DNA from: Oscillospiraceae bacterium
GTDB taxonomy: Bacteria; Bacillota; Clostridia; Christensenellales; Aristaeellaceae
Reading direction: 5' to 3'
NCBI GenBank assembly: GCA_031286995.1
Contig: JAITTS010000015.1
Coordinates: 1 to 38,777, forward strand
DNA: 38,777 bases
Shown here: in pieces, positions 596 to 10,107 of the stretch
How the letters are laid out: every line of letters starts with the position of its first letter
How positions within the stretch are numbered: position 1 is the stretch's first letter
The notes under the pieces: generated by a model
Told to the model about the DNA's origin: nothing
Seen by the model: only the letters and a program-made list of their open reading frames with translations
The model's database searches: none
Program-made: the position numbers and the translations under genes

Positions 596-2335
596 TCAAT
601 ACTTGGGTTTCGCCTGATAGGTTGTGTGCAGCAGGTGGTGCGCCCTTTCGCCGTTGGGCGCGCCCAGGTAATCCGCATACAACTTTTGGATGGAGGGATT
701 TTCGTGGGATTTGCGGATGGCCTTGCCCGCATCTTCAGCGTACAGCGCCTTGGCGCGTACCTGGCGGGGATCCACATCCATCAGCACATCCGCGCACACG
801 ATGGGTTGGCCGCCGCCGGTGACACAGCCGCCGGGGCAGCCCATCACTTCCACAAAGTGGTACTGCTTTTCGCCCGCGCGGATGCTATCCAGCAGGCGGG
901 CGGCGTTGCCGGTACCGCTGGCCACGGCCACGCGCACATCCGTATCGCCCACGCGGATGGTGGCTTCCTTCACGCCCTCCACGCCGCGCACCTGATGAAA
1001 ATCTACCTTATCCAGGCTTTTGCCGGTCACCTTTTCGTACACCGTGCGCAGGGCGGCCTCCATCACGCCGCCGGTCGCGCCGAATATGACACCCGCGCCG
1101 GTGGATTCGCCCAACATATCGTCAAAATCCTCATCCGGCAGTTCGTTGAAGCGGATGCCCGCCTCCTTGATCATGCGGGCCAGTTCGCGCGTGGTGATGA
1201 CCACATCCACATCCGGCAGGCCGTCCACCACCAGCTCCGGGCGCTTGGATTCGTACTTTTTCGCCGTGCAGGGCATCACCGATACCACGGCGATCTTCTC
1301 CGGGTCTATGTGGTTCTTTTCCGCGTAGTAGCTTTTGAGTATCGCGCCCATCATCTGATGAGGCGACTTACAGCTGGAGAGATTGGGGATGAAATCGGGG
1401 TAGTAGTGCTCGCAGTACTTGATCCAGCCCGGCGAGCAGGATGTGATCATGGGCAGCGGGCCACCCTTCTGCAGGCGGGCGAGAAATTCCGTGCCCTCCT
1501 CCATGATGGTCAGATCCGCGGCAAAATCGGTATCGAACACCTTATCAAAGCCCAGGCGGCGCAGGGCTGCGGCCATTTTGCCGGTGACGCTTGTGCCCAT
1601 GAGCAGGCCGAACTCTTCACCCAGCGCGGCGCGCACGGCGGGTGCGGGCTGCACGATGACCACCTTCTCCGGGTCATCCAGCAGCTTCCACACCTCGTCT
1701 GTCTCACTCTTCTCGCGCAGTGCGCCGACGGGGCAGGCCACGATGCACTGGCCGCAGTTGACGCAGGCCACCTCGCTCAGGCTTTTATCCCACGCGGGGC
1801 CAACCACGGTATCAAAGCCCCGGCCCACGGCGCCGATGACGCCTATCTTCTGCACGTTGGCGCAGGCGGCCACGCACCGGCGGCACAGAATGCACTTGTT
1901 GGGATCGCGCACCACGGATGGGGAGAGCGTATCCTCCGGCAGATCTGTGCGCTTGCCCTCAAAGGCCACCTCATCGGTCACGCCCAGCTCTTGGCAGAGG
2001 CGCTGCAGCTCACAATTTTGGCTGCGCACGCAGGATAGGCACTTTTTTTCGTGGTTGGATAGCAGCAGCTCCAGGTTCAGCTTGCGCGCGGCGCGCACGG
2101 CCTGGGTGTTGGTGCGCACCTTCATGCCCGGCGAGACCGGTAGCACGCAGGCCGCCTGTAGCGCCCTGCCGCCCACATCCACGCAACAGATACGGCAAGC
2201 GCCTATTTCGTTTTTGCCCTTTAGGTAACACAGCGTGGGGATGTGGATGCCCGCCTGGCGCGCGGCCTCCAGCACGGTGGCGCCGGGCTCTACCTGCACA
2301 TCCACGCCGTCAATCGTAAGGGTTATCAGTTCCAT
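596..2335 (-). CDS. hydA: NADH-dependent / electron-bifurcating-type [FeFe]-hydrogenase catalytic subunit (HydA/HndD-like, group A)
   Basis: 579 aa. N-terminal 2Fe-2S domain, ferredoxin-type CxxCxxC clusters, H-cluster motifs TSCSPGW, MPCTAKKYE and EVMGCPGGCVTGGGQP. Confidence 0.95.
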   Translation of the reverse strand: MELITLTIDGVDVQVEPGATVLEAARQAGIHIPTLCYLKGKNEIGACRICCVDVGGRALQAACVLPVSPGMKVRTNTQAVRAARKLNLELLLSNHEKKCLSCVRSQNCELQRLCQELGVTDEVAFEGKRTDLPEDTLSPSVVRDPNKCILCRRCVAACANVQKIGVIGAVGRGFDTVVGPAWDKSLSEVACVNCGQCIVACPVGALREKSETDEVWKLLDDPEKVVIVQPAPAVRAALGEEFGLLMGTSVTGKMAAALRRLGFDKVFDTDFAADLTIMEEGTEFLARLQKGGPLPMITSCSPGWIKYCEHYYPDFIPNLSSCKSPHQMMGAILKSYYAEKNHIDPEKIAVVSVMPCTAKKYESKRPELVVDGLPDVDVVITTRELARMIKEAGIRFNELPDEDFDDMLGESTGAGVIFGATGGVMEAALRTVYEKVTGKSLDKVDFHQVRGVEGVKEATIRVGDTDVRVAVASGTGNAARLLDSIRAGEKQYHFVEVMGCPGGCVTGGGQPIVCADVLMDVDPRQVRAKALYAEDAGKAIRKSHENPSIQKLYADYLGAPNGERAHHLLHTTYQAKPKY

Positions 2336-2359: not shown

Positions 2360-4156
2360 TTATTTTTTGATGATGGCGTTGAAGCGGCACTTCTCCATAC
2401 AGGCGCCGCACTTGATGCACTTATCCTGGTCGATGGCATGCAGCTCTTTGACCACGCCGCTGATGGCCCCCACCGGGCAGGATTTGGCGCACATGGTGCA
2501 GCCCCGGCACTTGTCGGTGATGGTATAGTTGAGCAGCGCCTGGCAGTGCCCGGCCGGGCAGCGCCGTTCATAAATATGGGCCTCGTACTCATGGCGGAAG
2601 TATTTGAGCGTGGAGAGCACCGGATTGGGCGCGGTCTGCCCCAGACCGCACAGCGCCGTGGCCTTGATATTTTGCGCCAGACGCTCCAGCTTTTCAATGT
2701 CGCCATCCTGCCCCTTGCCCTCGGTGATGCGCTGCAAAATCTCCAGCATGCGGCGGGTGCCGATGCGGCAGGGGGTACATTTGCCGCAGGATTCATCCAC
2801 CGTAAAGTCGAGGAAGAAGCGGGCGATATCCACCATGCAGTTATCTTCATCCATCACGATCATGCCGCCGGAGCCCATCATGGAGCCGATGGCGATCAGC
2901 GAGTCGTACTCAATGGGGATATCCAGGTACTTCATGGGGATGCAGCCGCCGGAGGGCCCGCCCGTCTGCACGGCCTTGAACTGCTTGCCGCCAGGTATGC
3001 CCCCGCCGATGTCGTAGATGACCTGGCGCAGGGGCGTGCCCATCGGTATCTCCACAAGGCCTGTGTTGGTGATCTTGCCGCCCAGGGCGAACACCTTGGT
3101 GCCCTTGGATTTTTCTGTGCCCATGGCCGCGTACCAATCCGCGCCGTTGAGAATGATCTGGCACACGTTGGCGTAGGTCTCCACGTTGTTGAGCAGCGTG
3201 GGTTTCTCAAACAACCCCTTGATGGCCGGGAAGGGCGGCCTGGGCCGCGGTTCGCCCCGGCGGCCTTCGATGGATGCCATCAGCGCGGTCTCCTCGCCGC
3301 AGACAAAGGCACCCGCGCCCAGGCGCACCGCCAAGCGGAAGCCGAAGGGCGTGCCCAGGATGTTGTCGCCCAGCAGGCCGTACGCCTCCGCCTGCGCGAT
3401 GGCGATCTGCAGGCGCTTGACGGCGATGGGGTATTCCGCCCGCACGTAGACGTAGCCCTGGCTCGCGCCCACCGCATAGCCGGCGATGGCCATAGCCTCT
3501 ACCACCGCGTGGGGGTCGCCCTCCAAGATGGAACGATCCATAAACGCGCCGGGGTCGCCCTCGTCTGCGTTGCAGCAGACGTACTTTTCGTCACCCGGGG
3601 CCTTGGCCGTAAACTCCCACTTCGTGCCGGTGGGGAAGCCGCCGCCGCCCCTGCCCCGCAGGCCCGAGCGCTTGATGGTATCAATCACCGCCTCGCGTGA
3701 CATTTCGGTGAGCACCTTGGCCAGCGCCTTGTAGCCATCAAAGGCGATGTACTCGTCGATATTCTCGGGGTCTATCACGCCGCAGTTGCGCAGGGCAATG
3801 CGCTTTTGCTGTTGGTAGAAGCCTATCTCATCCAAGGACATGCTCTGCCCCTGGGCGGTCTTATCCGTGTACACCAGGCGCTGTACCTGGCGGCCCTTGA
3901 CAAGGTGCTCCTGCACGATCTCGTCCACATCCTCGGGCTTTACGCGGCTGTAAAAGGTGCCCTCGGGGTAGACGATCACCACGGGCCCGGCCTCGCACAG
4001 GCCGAAGCAGCCCGTGCGCACCACCTTTACTTCCTTCTCCAAGCGGTTCTCCGCAATTTTGCTCTCAAAACGCGCTATCAATTCGCCGGAACCGGACGAC
4101 GAACAGCCCGTACCCCCGCAGACCAGCACATGGGCGCGAAACAAATCCATAGCCAT
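2360..4156 (-). CDS. hydB: NuoF-like NADH-binding subunit of [FeFe]-hydrogenase (HydB/HndC)
   Basis: 598 aa. N-terminal thioredoxin-like 2Fe-2S domain, RGRGGGGFPTGTKWEF FMN/NAD motif, ESCGKCTPCRIGTRR, C-terminal 2x[4Fe-4S]. Confidence 0.95.
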   Translation of the reverse strand: MAMDLFRAHVLVCGGTGCSSSGSGELIARFESKIAENRLEKEVKVVRTGCFGLCEAGPVVIVYPEGTFYSRVKPEDVDEIVQEHLVKGRQVQRLVYTDKTAQGQSMSLDEIGFYQQQKRIALRNCGVIDPENIDEYIAFDGYKALAKVLTEMSREAVIDTIKRSGLRGRGGGGFPTGTKWEFTAKAPGDEKYVCCNADEGDPGAFMDRSILEGDPHAVVEAMAIAGYAVGASQGYVYVRAEYPIAVKRLQIAIAQAEAYGLLGDNILGTPFGFRLAVRLGAGAFVCGEETALMASIEGRRGEPRPRPPFPAIKGLFEKPTLLNNVETYANVCQIILNGADWYAAMGTEKSKGTKVFALGGKITNTGLVEIPMGTPLRQVIYDIGGGIPGGKQFKAVQTGGPSGGCIPMKYLDIPIEYDSLIAIGSMMGSGGMIVMDEDNCMVDIARFFLDFTVDESCGKCTPCRIGTRRMLEILQRITEGKGQDGDIEKLERLAQNIKATALCGLGQTAPNPVLSTLKYFRHEYEAHIYERRCPAGHCQALLNYTITDKCRGCTMCAKSCPVGAISGVVKELHAIDQDKCIKCGACMEKCRFNAIIKK

Positions 4157-4192: not shown

Positions 4193-4573
4193 TTATTGGC
4201 CCTGCTTCTCCGCGAAGGTGACGGTGTATTCCTCCACCGGGCGGCCGTTGACGATGTGCTCGGCCACCACGCGGCTCACCTTTTCCGGGGACATGCGCAC
4301 GTAGGTCACTTTATCCTTGCCGGGCAGCATCACATCCACCATGGGCTCCAGACGGCACATGCCGATGCAGCCGGTCTGCGATACCTGCACGTGGCTGATG
4401 CCGCGCTTCTGCAGCTCCTCCAAAAAAGCAAGCATCACGGGGCGCGCGCCCGCGGCGATGCCGCAGGTGGCCATGCCCACCACAACGCGCACCACGTCAT
4501 CCTTCTCCTTGCGCATGCCCACCTGCTCCAGCGTCCGCTGGCGTATGGCTTCCAGTTCCGCAATGGTCTTCAT
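4193..4573 (-). CDS. (2Fe-2S) ferredoxin domain protein, HndB-like
   Basis: MKTIAELEAIRQRTLEQV... with C-x11-C...QTGCIGMCRLEP thioredoxin-fold ferredoxin pattern. ATG at 4573 with upstream GGAGGGACAT. Confidence 0.88.
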   Translation of the reverse strand: MKTIAELEAIRQRTLEQVGMRKEKDDVVRVVVGMATCGIAAGARPVMLAFLEELQKRGISHVQVSQTGCIGMCRLEPMVDVMLPGKDKVTYVRMSPEKVSRVVAEHIVNGRPVEEYTVTFAEKQGQ

Positions 4574-4620
4574 GATGTCCCTCCGTCTATGTAGATTGTC
4601 GCGATCGGGCATCGCGCCCG

Positions 4621-5199
4621 CTACAGGCGGGTCACGTCAACCTCTGCCGCCAGGCCGGGCAGGGCTTCGGCGATGCCCTCGCGCAAGCTCTCCCGCATCC
4701 AGGCCACCACCTCGGGCGCATCCAGCCCCACCGTGACCAGGGCCGCGCGCATCTCACGCGTATCAAAGGTATAACGCCTCTCCCCCGTGGCCAGGCACAG
4801 CACGTAATCCGGCGTGAGCGGGGTTGTAACCACCAGGGTGATCACCGTGCCCGCGATATCCCCCAGCGGCGGCCTGTCCACATGGCGCAGGCCAAAATCG
4901 CCCGTGACCGTGGTACCCCGCCCCACCTCGGATACGATGCGCACCCCGCCGCCGGCAAGCTCCGCATTCTCTTGAAAGAGCGGAATGCCCAGGCCGATGC
5001 CCCGGGTGGTGCGGGTGGTGGTGAAGGGGCTGGTGACCCGCGCCAACAGATCCGGCGGCATGCCGCATCCGTCGTCTCGCAGGGTGACGGTCAGCCTATC
5101 CGCATCCGGATCGGCCAGCAGCGAAATCTCTACCAGCGACGCCCCGGCGCGCACGCTGTTCTGTGCCAGATCCAGTATGTGCAGCGACAAGTCGCGCAT
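4621..5199 (-). CDS. Stand-alone HATPase_c domain protein (histidine-kinase-like ATPase without DHp domain)
   Basis: N box LDLAQNSVRAGA, G1 DDGCGMP, F/G2 TTRTTRGIGLGIPLFQENAELAGGGVRIVSEVGRGT; starts directly with MRDLSLHILDLAQNSV, so no phosphoacceptor His region. Confidence 0.88.
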   Translation of the reverse strand: MRDLSLHILDLAQNSVRAGASLVEISLLADPDADRLTVTLRDDGCGMPPDLLARVTSPFTTTRTTRGIGLGIPLFQENAELAGGGVRIVSEVGRGTTVTGDFGLRHVDRPPLGDIAGTVITLVVTTPLTPDYVLCLATGERRYTFDTREMRAALVTVGLDAPEVVAWMRESLREGIAEALPGLAAEVDVTRL

Positions 5200-5202
5200 G
5201 GC

Positions 5203-5682
5203 CTATTGCCCCAGGTACTTGGCCAGTATGCCGGGTACATCCTCGGGTACCAAGCGGCCATACACCTCATCATCCACCATCAGCACAGGCGCCAGGCCGC
5301 AAGCGCCCAGGCAGCGGGTGGCCTTTAGGGTAAACTTGGCATCCGCAGTGGTCTTGCCCGGCGCCACGGCCAGCAACTCGCTCAACTTATCCAGCAATTT
5401 CTGCGAGCCTTTTACATAACAGGCCGTGCCCAGACACACGCCGATTTCGTGCTCGCCGCCCGGCTCCAGCGAAAACTGGGCGTAGAATGTTGCCACGCCG
5501 TACACCTCGCTGAGCGACGCGCCCGTCGCGTCGGCGATCATCTGCTGCACATCCTGCGGCACGTGCCCAAAGATACTCTGCGCCGCCTGCAGCAGCACCA
5601 TGACAGCACCCTTTTCGTGCGCGTGCTCTGCAATTGCTTGCTGCAATCGCAGCATCTGTTCCGCCCTGTTCTCTTCGGCCAT
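5203..5682 (-). CDS. hydC: NuoE-like 24-kDa 2Fe-2S subunit of [FeFe]-hydrogenase (HydC/HndA)
   Basis: MAEENRAEQMLRLQQAIAEHAHEKGAVMVLLQAAQSIFGHVP...CLGTACYVKGS...ATRCLGACGLAPVL. ORF extends upstream to 5745; start at 5682 preferred. Confidence 0.92.
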   Translation of the reverse strand: MAEENRAEQMLRLQQAIAEHAHEKGAVMVLLQAAQSIFGHVPQDVQQMIADATGASLSEVYGVATFYAQFSLEPGGEHEIGVCLGTACYVKGSQKLLDKLSELLAVAPGKTTADAKFTLKATRCLGACGLAPVLMVDDEVYGRLVPEDVPGILAKYLGQ

Positions 5683-5803
5683 ATCCCTGCCTCCTTCTAT
5701 GCGATCGGCCTGCGCCGACAACATTGATAATTTCATCACAAGCACTGGCTTCCGTCACATTCTACCATAAATCGGGCCGGATTGCACCCATAAAAATGTG
5801 GGA

Positions 5804-5914: not shown

Positions 5915-6616
5915 CTACCCACCCGCACGCAGGTACGCCAATATGCCCGCTGGCGTTCTTTCCGCCGCGGGCAGGGGCATACCTCCTTCGGCAATATCCT
6001 CTAAACGATGCGCGTCGGACGAACGCAGCACCGAGTACTTCGACAGATCCACAGCCGGGGGCGGCGCGTGGGGCGAAACCTCTACCGCCGGCAAGCGCAG
6101 CCCCGACGGAAACATGCCCAGGGCGGAGAGCAGGCTGTTGGCCCCCCGGTTGATGTGCGCCGGCACCGCCACGCCGCCCATGGCCCACACGCGGGCCGCC
6201 ACCTCGGCCAGGGTGGCCTGCACAGCCTGTATCAGCAGTTTGGGCACGGTATCCACGCAGGCATCCTGGGCATCGCACACGCACTGTTCCCCAAAGATGC
6301 CCGGTTTGTTGAGCACGGGCGGTATGCGCTCATAAAGCCAATCCCCCAGCATCAGCGCGTCGGCCACGGTGGGCAGGTAGCACAGCAGGTGCACATCCTC
6401 CTGCGTGTTGGCCTCTATGGCGGGCAAGAACACCAACCCCCGCGCATCCGCCACGGCCTGGCAGGCGGGCAAGTTGCGGGCGCTGTTGTGATCGGCCACG
6501 GCAATGGCATCCAGCCCCTTCAGCCAGGCCATGTTCACCAGGTTGTTGGGGGTCATATCCGCATCCGCGCACGGGGAAAGGCAGGAGTGTATGTGCAAAT
6601 CCGCGCGCAGGATCAT
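5915..6616 (-). CDS. PHP-domain metal-dependent phosphoesterase
   Basis: MILRADLHIHSCLSPCADADMTPNNLVNMAWLKGLDAIAVADHNSARN: PHP HxH...DHN signature. 4-nt ATGA overlap with upstream gene. Confidence 0.92.
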   Translation of the reverse strand: MILRADLHIHSCLSPCADADMTPNNLVNMAWLKGLDAIAVADHNSARNLPACQAVADARGLVFLPAIEANTQEDVHLLCYLPTVADALMLGDWLYERIPPVLNKPGIFGEQCVCDAQDACVDTVPKLLIQAVQATLAEVAARVWAMGGVAVPAHINRGANSLLSALGMFPSGLRLPAVEVSPHAPPPAVDLSKYSVLRSSDAHRLEDIAEGGMPLPAAERTPAGILAYLRAGG

Positions 6617-6969
6617 GGGCGCTCGGTGGTGCGCAAGCCCGCCGCGTATAGCATGCCGCCCAGCGTGAACGCGTCGTGCTTGGATGCGAACAACGCAAAG
6701 CCGTCATCCCTGGCGCGCTGCAGCATAGCGGAATCCACCTGGCTGCAATCGGCCAGGATCACGCAGGCTGCCTCTATCAACTCCGCCACGGCGATGACGT
6801 TCAGGTGGGTCTGCACGGTGATCCACGCCATGCCAGGCTGCTCGCGCCCCATCACCCAACTGAGCAGGTCGCAGCTGTATCCCGCGCTGATCTCCTTATC
6901 CAGCGGCACACCGGGCACCAGCAGTTCCGCACCGGTGATCTCCATCATTTGCGCCAGTGTCATGGGCAT
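6613..6969 (-). CDS. DRTGG-domain protein (second of two paralogues)
   Basis: 118 aa. EITGAELLVPG...AGYSCDLLSWVMG...AWITVQTHLNVIAVAEL resembles DRTGG-domain proteins of hydrogenase loci; paralogous to 8792-9148. Confidence 0.75.
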   Translation of the reverse strand: MPMTLAQMMEITGAELLVPGVPLDKEISAGYSCDLLSWVMGREQPGMAWITVQTHLNVIAVAELIEAACVILADCSQVDSAMLQRARDDGFALFASKHDAFTLGGMLYAAGLRTTERP

Positions 6970-6996
6970 TCCTCCAAAGCTATGATGATTGACTGA

Positions 6997-8307
6997 TCAC
7001 TTCGCACGGGGTGTCCTGGGGGTGTGCGAAATCTCCAGCATCTGCTGGGCCATATCCTGCAAGCGGCCCTTGAGCTTGTGGATGCAATCCATCTCCCCGG
7101 CGAAGCCCAGGGCCATATCCTCGGCCAAAGCATGGCAGGTGGGCGACCCGCACGCGCCGCAGTCGTAGCCTGGCAGGGTCTTGGTTATGGTCTCTATCTG
7201 CTCCAGCTTGCGCATGGCTTCCCCTATGTCCTCATCCAAGCGCATGATGCTGCTGGGTAGTATGGGCAGGGTGTTGTACAGGGGATAATTGCGCAGGTAC
7301 TTGGTATCCACCGCCACATCCGGGGATAGATCGGGCATGGGGGCCATCAGCTTGCGGATGGCGTTCTTGGCGATGTAGCTGTTTTCAAAGGTGAGCGCGC
7401 CGCCCACGCAGCCGCCGATGCAGGCCTGGCCCTCAAAGTATTCCAGATCGCTCAGCTTGTTGTTCTCCATCTCCTCCAGCACGCGGATGACGTGCTCAAT
7501 ACCGCCCACGGCCAGGCTATTTTCGGCATGCAGGGCGGCGCACTCCCCCCCGCCCTTGGCCCAGCCCACGCCAAAGAGTGTGGATGTGGCCAGCTTTTCG
7601 GTGGGCATGGGCTTGCGTATTTTGGCGGAGAGCATACCGTAAATCTCCAGGATGGAGATAGCCCCATCCAGCGCGGAGAGCTCGTGGCCGATGGGGTTGC
7701 GTATGGCGGTCACCTTGGCTGGGCATGGGGTGATAAAGAAGCAGCCCACCTGATCCTCCGGCACGTCATTGGCTTGGCAAAACTCGCGCTTGGCCACCAG
7801 GGCCGCTACCTCCATGGGCTGACGGATATCCACGATGTGGTCTATCAGATCGGGGAAGCGCACCTGGATGAGCCGCACGATGGCCGGGCAGGCGGCGGAT
7901 ATCAGGGGTTTGGGCAGCGTCTTATGCCGCAGCGCATCCATGATGGCCTTGCTGACGATATCTGCGCCCCGGGCGACCTCGAACACCGCATCAAAGCCCA
8001 GGTGCAACAGGCCCGTCAAAATATCGTCGATGCAGGCCACGCCCCGAAATTGACCGTAGAGCGTAGGCGCGGGCAGGGCGATGCGGTAAGGGAAGCGGCT
8101 GATGCTGCTGAGCGCATCCGTGGTGGCCACCTTGGCGTGATAAGGGCACACATTGATGCACTCGCCGCAGTCGATGCATCGCTCGTCAAGGATGTGCGCG
8201 CGGCCATCCCACACGCGGATGGCCTCGGTGGGGCAGCGTTTGAGGCAGGTGGTACAACCCCGGCAGCGCTCCTTTTCCAGCCGCACGGAATGGTAGGTCT
8301 TTGGCAT
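6997..8307 (-). CDS. Sensory-type [FeFe]-hydrogenase homologue (HydS-like; probably group D) with N-terminal 2x[4Fe-4S] and C-terminal Fe-S domain
   Basis: CRGCTTCLKRCP / CIDCGECINVCP; H-cluster P1 ISAACPAIV, P2 ITPCPAK, P3 GQACIGGCVGG; C-terminal LPGYDCGACGSPTCHALAEDM (PF04060-type pattern). Confidence 0.9.
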   Translation of the reverse strand: MPKTYHSVRLEKERCRGCTTCLKRCPTEAIRVWDGRAHILDERCIDCGECINVCPYHAKVATTDALSSISRFPYRIALPAPTLYGQFRGVACIDDILTGLLHLGFDAVFEVARGADIVSKAIMDALRHKTLPKPLISAACPAIVRLIQVRFPDLIDHIVDIRQPMEVAALVAKREFCQANDVPEDQVGCFFITPCPAKVTAIRNPIGHELSALDGAISILEIYGMLSAKIRKPMPTEKLATSTLFGVGWAKGGGECAALHAENSLAVGGIEHVIRVLEEMENNKLSDLEYFEGQACIGGCVGGALTFENSYIAKNAIRKLMAPMPDLSPDVAVDTKYLRNYPLYNTLPILPSSIMRLDEDIGEAMRKLEQIETITKTLPGYDCGACGSPTCHALAEDMALGFAGEMDCIHKLKGRLQDMAQQMLEISHTPRTPRAK

Positions 8308-8355
8308 GGATAATTCTCTCCTCAGCGCGGGACGCGCCATGTGATGCGGGCAAAA

Positions 8356-8775
8356 TTAGATGTTAAAATCCATCTGAATGCAGGTGCCTACGCCGGGGTC
8401 GGATGTGATGGCGAACTGATCCGCATTGCGCTTCATGTTCGGCAGGCCCATGCCCGCGCCAAAGCCCAGGCTACGGGCATCCTCACTGGCGGTGGAGTAC
8501 CCCTCGCGCATGGCCAGGTCAATATCCGGTATGCCGGGGCCGCGATCCTGCGATGTGATGCGCACCCGGTGGTCGTCTACATGCAGCAGCAACTCGCCCC
8601 CCAGGCTGTGGATGATAAGATTCAGCTCTACCTCGTAGCTGGCCACGGCCACCCGCCGCACCACCCCCGCATCCACCCCCAATTTCTTGAGAATCTGCTT
8701 GATGGTGGCGGATGCCTCGCCTGCGGTGGTAAAGCCGCCCGCTTCCACGGGAAATACCTCGCGTATGCCGCTCAT
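8356..8775 (-). CDS. Stand-alone ATP-binding protein, anti-sigma-factor (RsbW/SpoIIAB)-like HATPase
   Basis: MSGIREVFPVEAGGFTTAGEASATIKQILKKLGV...YEVELNLIIHS...SQDRGPGIPDIDLAMREGYST...LGFGAGMGLPNMKRNAD. Start at 8775 rather than ORF start 8949. Confidence 0.87.
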   Translation of the reverse strand: MSGIREVFPVEAGGFTTAGEASATIKQILKKLGVDAGVVRRVAVASYEVELNLIIHSLGGELLLHVDDHRVRITSQDRGPGIPDIDLAMREGYSTASEDARSLGFGAGMGLPNMKRNADQFAITSDPGVGTCIQMDFNI

Positions 8776-8791
8776 CTGTGTTCCCCTCCGC

Positions 8792-9148
8792 CTAGGCTTC
8801 CTGGCGTCTTTCACAGCCGGCCAGGCCATGCTGATAGAGAATGCCGCAGGCCAAGTAGAGCGTGTGCCGCGTGGTGAGGATGGCGATGCCGCGCGCCTTG
8901 GCCATATCCGCCAAATCCTCGGCGGGCACCTTGCCTCTGGTGAACACAATGCAGGTAATATCCAGCATCTCTGCCGTGCGGATGACGTGGGGATTAATCA
9001 GCCCTGTCAGCAACACGGTGCGATCCTTCACAAAGGCCAGCACGTCGCTCATCAAATCCGAGCCACAGGCAGAGTGTATTTCCGTACCCAAATCATCCGC
9101 CACAACCACCCGGGCATCCAGCAGTGTCGCGATTTTCTGAACGGTCAT
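8792..9148 (-). CDS. DRTGG-domain protein (first of two paralogues)
   Basis: MTVQKIATLLDARVVVADDLGTEIHSACGSDLMSDVLAFVKDRTVLLTGLINPHVIRTAEML; overlaps stop of upstream SPOR gene by 4 nt. Confidence 0.8.
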   Translation of the reverse strand: MTVQKIATLLDARVVVADDLGTEIHSACGSDLMSDVLAFVKDRTVLLTGLINPHVIRTAEMLDITCIVFTRGKVPAEDLADMAKARGIAILTTRHTLYLACGILYQHGLAGCERRQEA

Positions 9149-10107
9149 CCCCATGCCCCCATCCCTTGTATTGGCACGCCGCGCCTTGCCTGCTGCGCGG
9201 TCAATTGCCGCATGTAGCGCAACAGCGAGCACAGCAAATCTATCTGTTGATATTTGATATTCGACGTTAGGGTCACGGTTTCCTGTGTGTTTTGCGCACA
9301 AATCGTTTCCAGGCCCTTTCGGGCCGTTTCGAGCAATACGCCCAGGCCCGTCACCACCTGGCTGGTGCTGCTGCCCAAGGCTTCGGAAAGGGCGCGCTGC
9401 CTATCCTCCACCTCCAGGCGCATAGCCTGGGCTGCCAGCACCACCGTGGCGCCATCCATGCGCTGGGCATCCAGGTCTGTGGAAAGGCGGTGCATCTGCC
9501 GCAGGGTCTGGGTCAGCACATCAAAGCCGCCGCGCAACGCCTGCACCTGTCCCTGGGCCGCGGTGACGCTCAGCTCCACCGTGTCGGCAGAAAGGTGATA
9601 CACGTAAGTATCCATGCCCTGGGCATCGTGCAGGCGGCCACGGATGGTCTCTGCATCCTCCGGGGTGGCGTAGGCAGCGGCCAGCACGCGGTACGCGCCA
9701 TCCTGCAGCACGTAACCCGCCGCGCCGCGGCCTGTGTAGCGCCGCGCCTGCTCGCGCGCGGCCTGCTCCTCGCCGTACGCGCCCAGCTGTATGGCGTACC
9801 AATCCAGGCCGGGGATGGTTACCAGGCCCTCCCCCTGCTCGCCCCAATCCGGCGTGGCAAAACCCGGCGCGGGGATATCAGTCTGCGCGGCAGGGGTCTG
9901 TACCGCCACCCTATCCGGCGGGACAGGGGTGGCCGTAACCAGCGGCAAGGGCGTGGCCCTGGGCGCGGCCTGCCAAGGGCCAGGCAAACCGCGCGCCAGC
10001 AGCAACGCCAGCAGCGCAAAGACCACCGCGCCCAAGGCCCGCCGTGTACCCCTGCCCACCGGATAGCGCCTGGCGCGCAACCCGCCATACCTTGCTCGTT
10101 TGGCCAT
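9145..10107 (-). CDS. Membrane-anchored SPOR-domain protein with C-terminal helical region
   Basis: Single N-terminal TM (ALGAVVFALLALLLARGL), Pro/Thr linker, SPOR-like WYAIQLGAYGEEQAAREQARRYTGRGAAGYVLQDGAYRVLAAAYATPEDAE. ATG at 10107 with GGGAGG RBS. Confidence 0.8.
   Translation of the reverse strand: MAKRARYGGLRARRYPVGRGTRRALGAVVFALLALLLARGLPGPWQAAPRATPLPLVTATPVPPDRVAVQTPAAQTDIPAPGFATPDWGEQGEGLVTIPGLDWYAIQLGAYGEEQAAREQARRYTGRGAAGYVLQDGAYRVLAAAYATPEDAETIRGRLHDAQGMDTYVYHLSADTVELSVTAAQGQVQALRGGFDVLTQTLRQMHRLSTDLDAQRMDGATVVLAAQAMRLEVEDRQRALSEALGSSTSQVVTGLGVLLETARKGLETICAQNTQETVTLTSNIKYQQIDLLCSLLRYMRQLTAQQARRGVPIQGMGAWG

Follow-up and report, generated by a model that had tools for sequence, protein, structure and literature searches.

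A recurrent DRTGG, GHKL ATPase and PHP gene set around a group D [FeFe]-hydrogenase, HydS, in Clostridia: a putative redox-signalling module with an exchangeable sensor

Introduction

Biochemical work on TamHydS of Thermoanaerobacter mathranii (PMC8163306, PMC13104023) has described group D HydS as a putative H2 sensor. Genes for M2e hydrogenases had already been located upstream of those for trimeric hydrogenases, with a gene resembling histidine/serine kinases close by (Land et al. 2020, PMC8163306; Carere et al. 2012, PMC3561251). According to the 2026 study (PMC13104023), the C-terminal cluster of group D HydS is not reduced by H2, and its authors describe the interaction partner of the protein as still to be identified. 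With which proteins, then, does such a HydS work? The question is raised by a 38,777-nucleotide stretch of DNA from an Oscillospiraceae bacterium (contig JAITTS010000015.1; the whole stretch is called the window), in which a first-pass annotation had proposed an H2/redox signalling module of six genes encoding a SPOR-domain protein, a DRTGG protein (DR1), an anti-sigma-like ATPase (ATP1), HydS, a second DRTGG protein (DR2) and a PHP phosphoesterase. The best explanation of the data gathered here, and a reasonably likely one, is a conserved clostridial redox-signalling module with the order DR1-ATP1-sensor-DR2-PHP-ATP2, where ATP2 is a second GHKL ATPase, the sensor is exchangeable, HydS gates ATP1 and the DRTGG proteins are effectors.

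Conservation of the gene set

Related loci, 155 in all, were gathered from genome records (80) and from further genomes (75), and profiles were built from the genes of the window. Linkage was counted at the level of domains in the 134 HydS loci with enough flanking sequence, the window included. ATP1 is present at 133 of these 134 loci, DR1 lies upstream at 121, DR2 is found at 117 and PHP at 107, and all four partners occur together at 103. A sample spread over the phylum gives, by itself, 55/56 for ATP1 and 39/56 for all four partners. An ATP1 orthologue (E < 1e-25, the E-values being sharply bimodal) was found in 156 of 158 HydS-positive genomes versus 12 of 241 HydS-negative ones, which ties ATP1 to HydS near-perfectly across about 95 genera. 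Two of the 12 HydS-negative genomes with ATP1 have loci broken at contig ends (L225, L226; L-numbers denote loci). Because no more than four candidates were scored in each genome when HydS was searched for, some HydS-negative genomes may be misses. The linkage of the module is far beyond chance, and the first-pass expectation of a neighbourhood conserved across genomes is clearly borne out.

The SPOR-domain protein (positions 9145..10107, 320 amino acids; Pfam SPOR, 3e-8) did not keep its place in the proposed signalling set and was rejected as a module member, being upstream at only 32/145 HydS loci. At many loci, including some that HydS has left, its gene is flanked by folC and the module, maf-radC-mreB being located on the far side of the latter, and it is best viewed as a resident of this folC-maf chromosomal site and probably no part of the module.

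HydS and ATP1 as a functional pair

Natural fusions within single open reading frames cover every neighbouring pair of DR1-ATP1-HydS-DR2, plus PHP-ATP2. DR1 is fused to ATP1 in L165, L166, L195 and L211 (in L211 the DR1 part was recognised by the module profile only and is Pfam negative), and these fusions are split over two clades of the HydS tree. ATP1 is joined to HydS in L206 and L213, HydS to DR2 in L161 and L177, PHP to ATP2 in L196, and ATP2 to the ferredoxin Fd in L167. The ATP1-HydS pair has also relocated jointly: in L157, L169, L176 and L215 it is detached from the rest and lies beside response-regulator (CheY-type)/CheW-like genes, these neighbours having been identified by eye, and in three checked genomes with a detached pair (L241-L243) DR1-DR2-PHP-ATP2 stay together at the folC-SPOR...maf-radC-mreB site. 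Response-regulator-like and/or CheW-like genes were likewise seen by eye directly upstream of DR1/ATP1-HydS in L157, L160, L169, L175, L176 and L215; neighbours of this type suggest a possible tie to chemotaxis-type signalling.

In the window ATP1, HydS and DR2 share one reading frame, which allowed read-through pairs to be modelled with AlphaFold2 from partly paired alignments. The ATP1-HydS read-through gave a predicted TM-score (pTM) of 0.88, with a predicted local distance difference test (pLDDT) value below 50 in the linker only, and the HydS-DR2 read-through, a control of the same construction, gave 0.78. Set against the pTM of about 0.72-0.75 that our own arithmetic predicts for an unplaced second domain, these values suggest that ATP1 seems to be placed on HydS and DR2 not, a model that is supportive only. 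A confident binary complex of HydS with DR2 was thus unsupported, despite the fused HydS-DR2 reading frames in one lineage. All of the 50 matches that Foldseek listed for the ATP1-HydS model were hydrogenases.

Co-occurrence, fusion, joint relocation and the AlphaFold2 model together support a functional HydS-ATPase pair. The first-pass annotation had suggested that HydS gates the ATPase(s) and that structure prediction might reveal its partners; the pairing with ATP1 is the best-supported part of that idea, the direction of any gating is conjectural, and of the two partners modelled ATP1 was placed and DR2 was not.

Identity of HydS and the maturase gap

HydS (6997..8307, 436 amino acids; Pfam Fe_hyd_lg_C, 3e-27) has by Pfam an H-domain, two N-terminal [4Fe-4S] motifs (CRGCTTCLKRCP and CIDCGECINVCP) and a C-terminal iron-sulfur motif, which is exactly Cx2Cx4Cx16C (CGACGSPTC...DC). 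A PAS domain is absent, and the protein stops after the C-terminal cluster region, where group C proteins carry their PAS domain. The H-cluster motifs are ISAACP (L1), ITPCPAK (L2) and QACIGGC (L3), with Ala at the C299 position, and all four H-cluster cysteine positions are retained as invariant columns (C141, C196, C297 and C301). In a quick tree of 102 rows, which included group C proteins of the same bacterial family and carried a long-branch warning, the window HydS and the HydS of Thermoanaerobacter (L135) group in a single clade, separate from PAS-type group C (Shimodaira-Hasegawa-like approximate likelihood-ratio test, SH-aLRT, 96). By its motifs, the absent PAS domain and its tree position the protein is assigned to the sensory-type group D (M2e), in keeping with the first-pass view that it looks sensory. 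Its H-cluster content and H2 sensing are putative, and both are doubtful here because HydF and HydG were not detected in the genome.

In the window genome there was no HydG match and no HydF match above the cut-off. Of 100 genomes of the family, 20 have a HydF match above the cut-off and 12 a HydG match, and 51 of the 68 family genomes with group D HydS have neither. These include 20 genomes at no less than 94% completeness as well as G025, an assembly of 3 contigs that is HydF/HydG-less yet has a locus with the module and HydABC. The search works, since full-length maturase matches were obtained in relatives of the same family. Complete HydABC and HydS loci were seen in HydF/HydG-less genomes such as that of the window and those of L256-L259 and L262, and the H-cluster motifs are retained in HydA. 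The gap could reflect either an unknown maturation route or function without the [2Fe] part; loss from assemblies seems least likely.

Gene organization and conserved residues of the module

The six genes, of which Pfam and NCBIfam confirm the SPOR, ATP1, HydS and PHP products, are all present on the - strand at 10107-5915, tightly packed in the order SPOR, DR1, ATP1, HydS, DR2, PHP and followed by hydC-ATP2-Fd-hydB-hydA, an arrangement that agrees with the first-pass description. The start of DR1 overlaps the stop of SPOR, DR2 and PHP overlap by 4 bases, the remaining gaps within the set are 16-48 nt, and about 230 nt separate PHP from hydC. A promoter and terminator scan of the module found signals no commoner than in shuffles. 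Of the kinase-like ATPases that had been ascribed to this interval, ATP1 lies inside it and ATP2 (4621..5199, by domain match) lies outside, between hydC and Fd. ATP2 belongs to the regulatory module, since it stays with the DR and PHP genes where hydABC is absent and is fused to PHP in L196.

ATP1 (8356..8775, 139 amino acids; Pfam HATPase_c, 3e-9) is a SpoIIAB/RsbW-like GHKL ATPase in which the N-box residues E49 and N53 are 100% conserved, and the DxGPG and GFGAGMG boxes nearly or fully invariant, in 151 homologues. Its closest characterised kin are SpoIIAB (profile E 9e-12) and RsbW; its 47.6 bits fall short of the curated spIIAB cut-off of 135. No STAS antagonist or sigma factor was found among the recognised neighbours at the surveyed loci, not every neighbour having been scanned with Pfam.

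The two DRTGG proteins, DR1 (8792..9154, 120 amino acids; Pfam DRTGG, 1e-4) and DR2 (6613..6969, 118 amino acids; 0.011), score 22.4 and 16.0 bits, both under the Pfam cut-off of 25.2. Fused homologues score 33.7 and 30.1 bits, above it, so the label given to this pair flanking HydS holds for the family, while the window copies do not reach the curated threshold. DR1 has invariant D33/S36 (DLMSDVL) and T50, and DR2 has invariant D34, S37, W49, T51 and N57 in a 27-row alignment; both carry a DLxSxV motif whose D and S are almost or fully invariant. In a profile alignment AF_1212 has M and Q at these positions, and the D and S look module-specific and are candidate phosphate acceptors or contacts. 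Hpr_kinase_N was matched by DR1 only, below its cut-off, and neither protein has a P-loop kinase domain, so a 'serine kinase' (HPr kinase) identity was rejected; that wording in earlier papers may stem from these DRTGG proteins, which are free of a kinase domain here. No literature tying DRTGG to [FeFe]-hydrogenase was found in a search whose coverage left out Calusinska 2010 and Zheng 2014.

The PHP-family protein (5915..6616; Pfam PHP, 9e-6) has metal ligands H6, H8, D40, H41, E66, H152, D199 and H201, which are invariant in 124 sequences, in keeping with an intact metal-dependent phosphoesterase. Its best profile matches are nucleotide phosphatases and exonucleases (7ug9, 2yb1, 3e0f), a homology that makes a nucleotide a candidate substrate. 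The first-pass proposal that the DRTGG and PHP proteins produce, bind or break down a nucleotide-type signal is conjectural.

An exchangeable sensor and a broader output

HydS is dispensable. Six loci, L217, L219, L222, L223, L227 and L228, lack HydS and read DR1-ATP1-DR2-PHP-ATP2. Their ATP1 has two CBS domains at its N-terminus (E-values of 1.5e-28 to 6e-32 for the five loci scanned; L228 was assigned by sequence likeness). The genomes of L227 and L228 carry a separate HydS locus (L160 and L175), a CBS-type ATP1 and HydS occur together in L212 and L239, as judged by sequence likeness, and L237 and L238 have a bare DR1-ATP1-DR2-ATP2. HydS looks like one sensor that can be plugged into a wider redox module and swapped for CBS domains at the same gene position. 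The pairing of CBS with DRTGG is known from adenine-nucleotide-regulated pyrophosphatases and by analogy hints at a possible involvement of nucleotides.

In the window the genes next to the module are those of the bifurcating hydrogenase: hydC (5203..5685, NuoE-like by Pfam), the first gene of the operon, then ATP2, the thioredoxin-like [2Fe-2S] ferredoxin Fd (4193..4612, by domain match), hydB for the NADH/flavin subunit (2360..4156, by similarity) and hydA (596..2335), whose closest solved relative is HydA1 of the A. woodii HydABC (802 bits to 7q4v), all on the - strand. hydC lies downstream of the module at 74 of the 117 loci with enough flank and is missing there from the other 43. The module is followed by Rnf genes at L212, L214, L218, L220 and L222 and by genes for both Nfn and Rnf at L216 and L221, and Rex is often close by at these loci; the labels Rnf, Nfn and Rex were assigned by us from the sequences and then traced by similarity. 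Rnf and Nfn operons thus occupy the place of HydABC, and the output of the module is broader than the hydrogenase to which the first-pass annotation had confined it, although the adjacency to HydABC holds here.

The gap between PHP and hydC contains Rex-operator-like palindromes with 0-2 mismatches at 15/70 loci, and the mean best site has 3.9 mismatches versus 5.1 in mononucleotide shuffles. The window has a tentative site, TTGATAATTTCATCACAA, with 3 mismatches at 5724..5741. Loci of Thermoanaerobacter and Acetivibrio (L135, L140, L143, L118) have strong sites upstream of hydC. A Rex site upstream of DR1 was also considered and rejected as not enriched (4/131 with at most 2 mismatches). The hydrogenase operon probably has its own NADH-responsive, Rex-type promoter, and the module need not therefore act on transcription.

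Proposed mechanism and alternatives

Any mechanism has to account for what is directly observed, namely the composition, order and co-occurrence of the gene set, its fusions, the swapping of sensor and output and the conservation of catalytic residues. In the module proposed here, the sensor slot would be filled by group D HydS, which is predicted to dock directly on the SpoIIAB-like ATP1. From this contact onwards the steps are ones that we infer. The state of the H-cluster or iron-sulfur clusters of HydS may gate ATP hydrolysis or kinase activity of ATP1, in either direction; ATP1 may act on the paired DRTGG proteins as likely effectors, the invariant Ser of DLxSxV being a candidate phosphate acceptor; and PHP and ATP2 could either pass the signal on or return the system to its resting state. 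NADH/ferredoxin enzymes would be the targets of this regulation, HydABC here and Rnf or Nfn elsewhere, and hydrogenase output may change as a result. Several points weigh against this proposal. Its basis is computational only, the co-occurrence counts ignore phylogeny, and the AlphaFold2 placement was read from pTM and pLDDT alone on artificially joined chains. The usual SpoIIAB partners, STAS protein and sigma factor, are unseen at the locus, which makes kinase action by ATP1 a guess; hydC is seemingly under its own Rex-type control, so that any transcriptional effect of the module may be indirect or nil; and many family genomes, including that of the window, lack detectable HydF and HydG, so HydS may have no H-cluster.

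The last point leads to a variant, possible though clearly the less probable choice, in which HydS of the window lineage is no H2 sensor, holds only [4Fe-4S] clusters and reports ferredoxin or redox state to ATP1; it is compatible with the module and changes the input alone. The 51 maturase-less family genomes, with G025 and the 20 near-complete ones among them, speak for it, whereas the four cysteine positions kept in HydS and the H-cluster motifs kept in HydA speak against it, as does the possibility of an unknown maturation route, the maturase search having covered HydF and HydG, not HydE. Classical partner switching, with ATP1 as an anti-sigma/anti-anti-sigma kinase that frees a sigma factor for the hydrogenase genes upon H2 sensing by HydS, would suit the kinship of ATP1 with SpoIIAB and RsbW, the phosphatase-like gene seen by eye directly after HydS at group C loci of the same family (L232, L233, L235), and the putative Ser/Thr phosphatase that accompanies a group C sensor (PMC6776011). 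It is unlikely given the lack of a sigma or STAS gene among recognised neighbours, the spIIAB score far under cut-off, and the Rex-like sites that occupy the region upstream of hydC instead.

About equally improbable is that the set forms an assembly or maintenance factor for iron-sulfur/flavin NADH-ferredoxin enzymes, the GHKL ATPase serving as chaperone beside scaffolds and HydS as a structural or redox-checking component that senses no signal. The recurrent neighbours are indeed large enzymes of that kind (HydABC, Rnf, Nfn) and ATP2 sits inside the hydrogenase operon; however, CBS domains can take the place of HydS and ATP1-HydS is linked to CheY/CheW-type genes, both of which favour signalling, and the 43 loci lacking hydC do not fit. 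Simple operon hitch-hiking of unrelated genes, which the SPOR gene shows to occur at this site, is already contradicted by the fusions, the joint relocation and the near-perfect ATP1-HydS co-occurrence, and its probability is negligible.

On the signalling-module reading, the survey names a partner set for group D HydS in which ATP1 ranks first. It could be, though the odds are somewhat against so wide a claim, that DRTGG-GHKL ATPase-DRTGG-PHP-GHKL ATPase is an undescribed family of redox-signalling modules which uses H-cluster or CBS-pair sensors to control NADH/ferredoxin enzymes across Clostridia, with HydS carrying an altered cluster or matured by an unknown route in HydF/HydG-less lineages. 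The exchangeable sensor and the broader output suggest that the module may have a general role in regulating the NADH/ferredoxin balance of anaerobes. The missing maturases pose a separate puzzle, one that can be checked.

Comparison with known systems

TamHydS is among the nearest known systems: the window protein belongs to the clade of Thermoanaerobacter L135 HydS, and the two are alike in lacking PAS, in the changed C299 position, in the Cx2Cx4Cx16C cluster and in being encoded upstream of a trimeric hydrogenase, a HATPase neighbour having already been noted in 2020. The flanking genes named in the accessible parts of that work are a HATPase and an AraC regulator, whereas the DRTGG pair, PHP, ATP2, the fusions and the HydS-less versions go unmentioned there. 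The group C (M2f) proteins TmHydS and R. albus HydS are similarly low-activity putative H2 sensors beside another hydrogenase, but have PAS and form a separate clade. At group C loci in the window's family a phosphatase-like gene follows HydS, as noted above for three loci, and none of the five such loci read had DRTGG or ATP1 matches; a further Fe-hydrogenase-like gene was seen at L232 and L235.

ATP1 shares with SpoIIAB and RsbW the GHKL fold, the N-box E-x3-N and the ATP-binding G boxes, and differs in its ATP lid (GYSTA...GFGAGMGL), its sub-cut-off spIIAB score and in having no STAS protein or sigma factor among the recognised neighbours. The module DRTGG proteins belong by profile match to the same family as the regulatory region of CBS-DRTGG pyrophosphatase (3l2b/3l31) and AF_1212 (2ioj), and CBS plus DRTGG recur in the HydS-less modules; unlike those proteins, they are free-standing, have the module-specific invariant D and S, and read TGLxN where AF_1212 has TGGDRSD. 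The module PHP carries the metal-ligand motifs of the nucleotide phosphatases and exonucleases 7ug9, 2yb1 and 3e0f, but is shorter and forms a distinct subfamily tied to the module.

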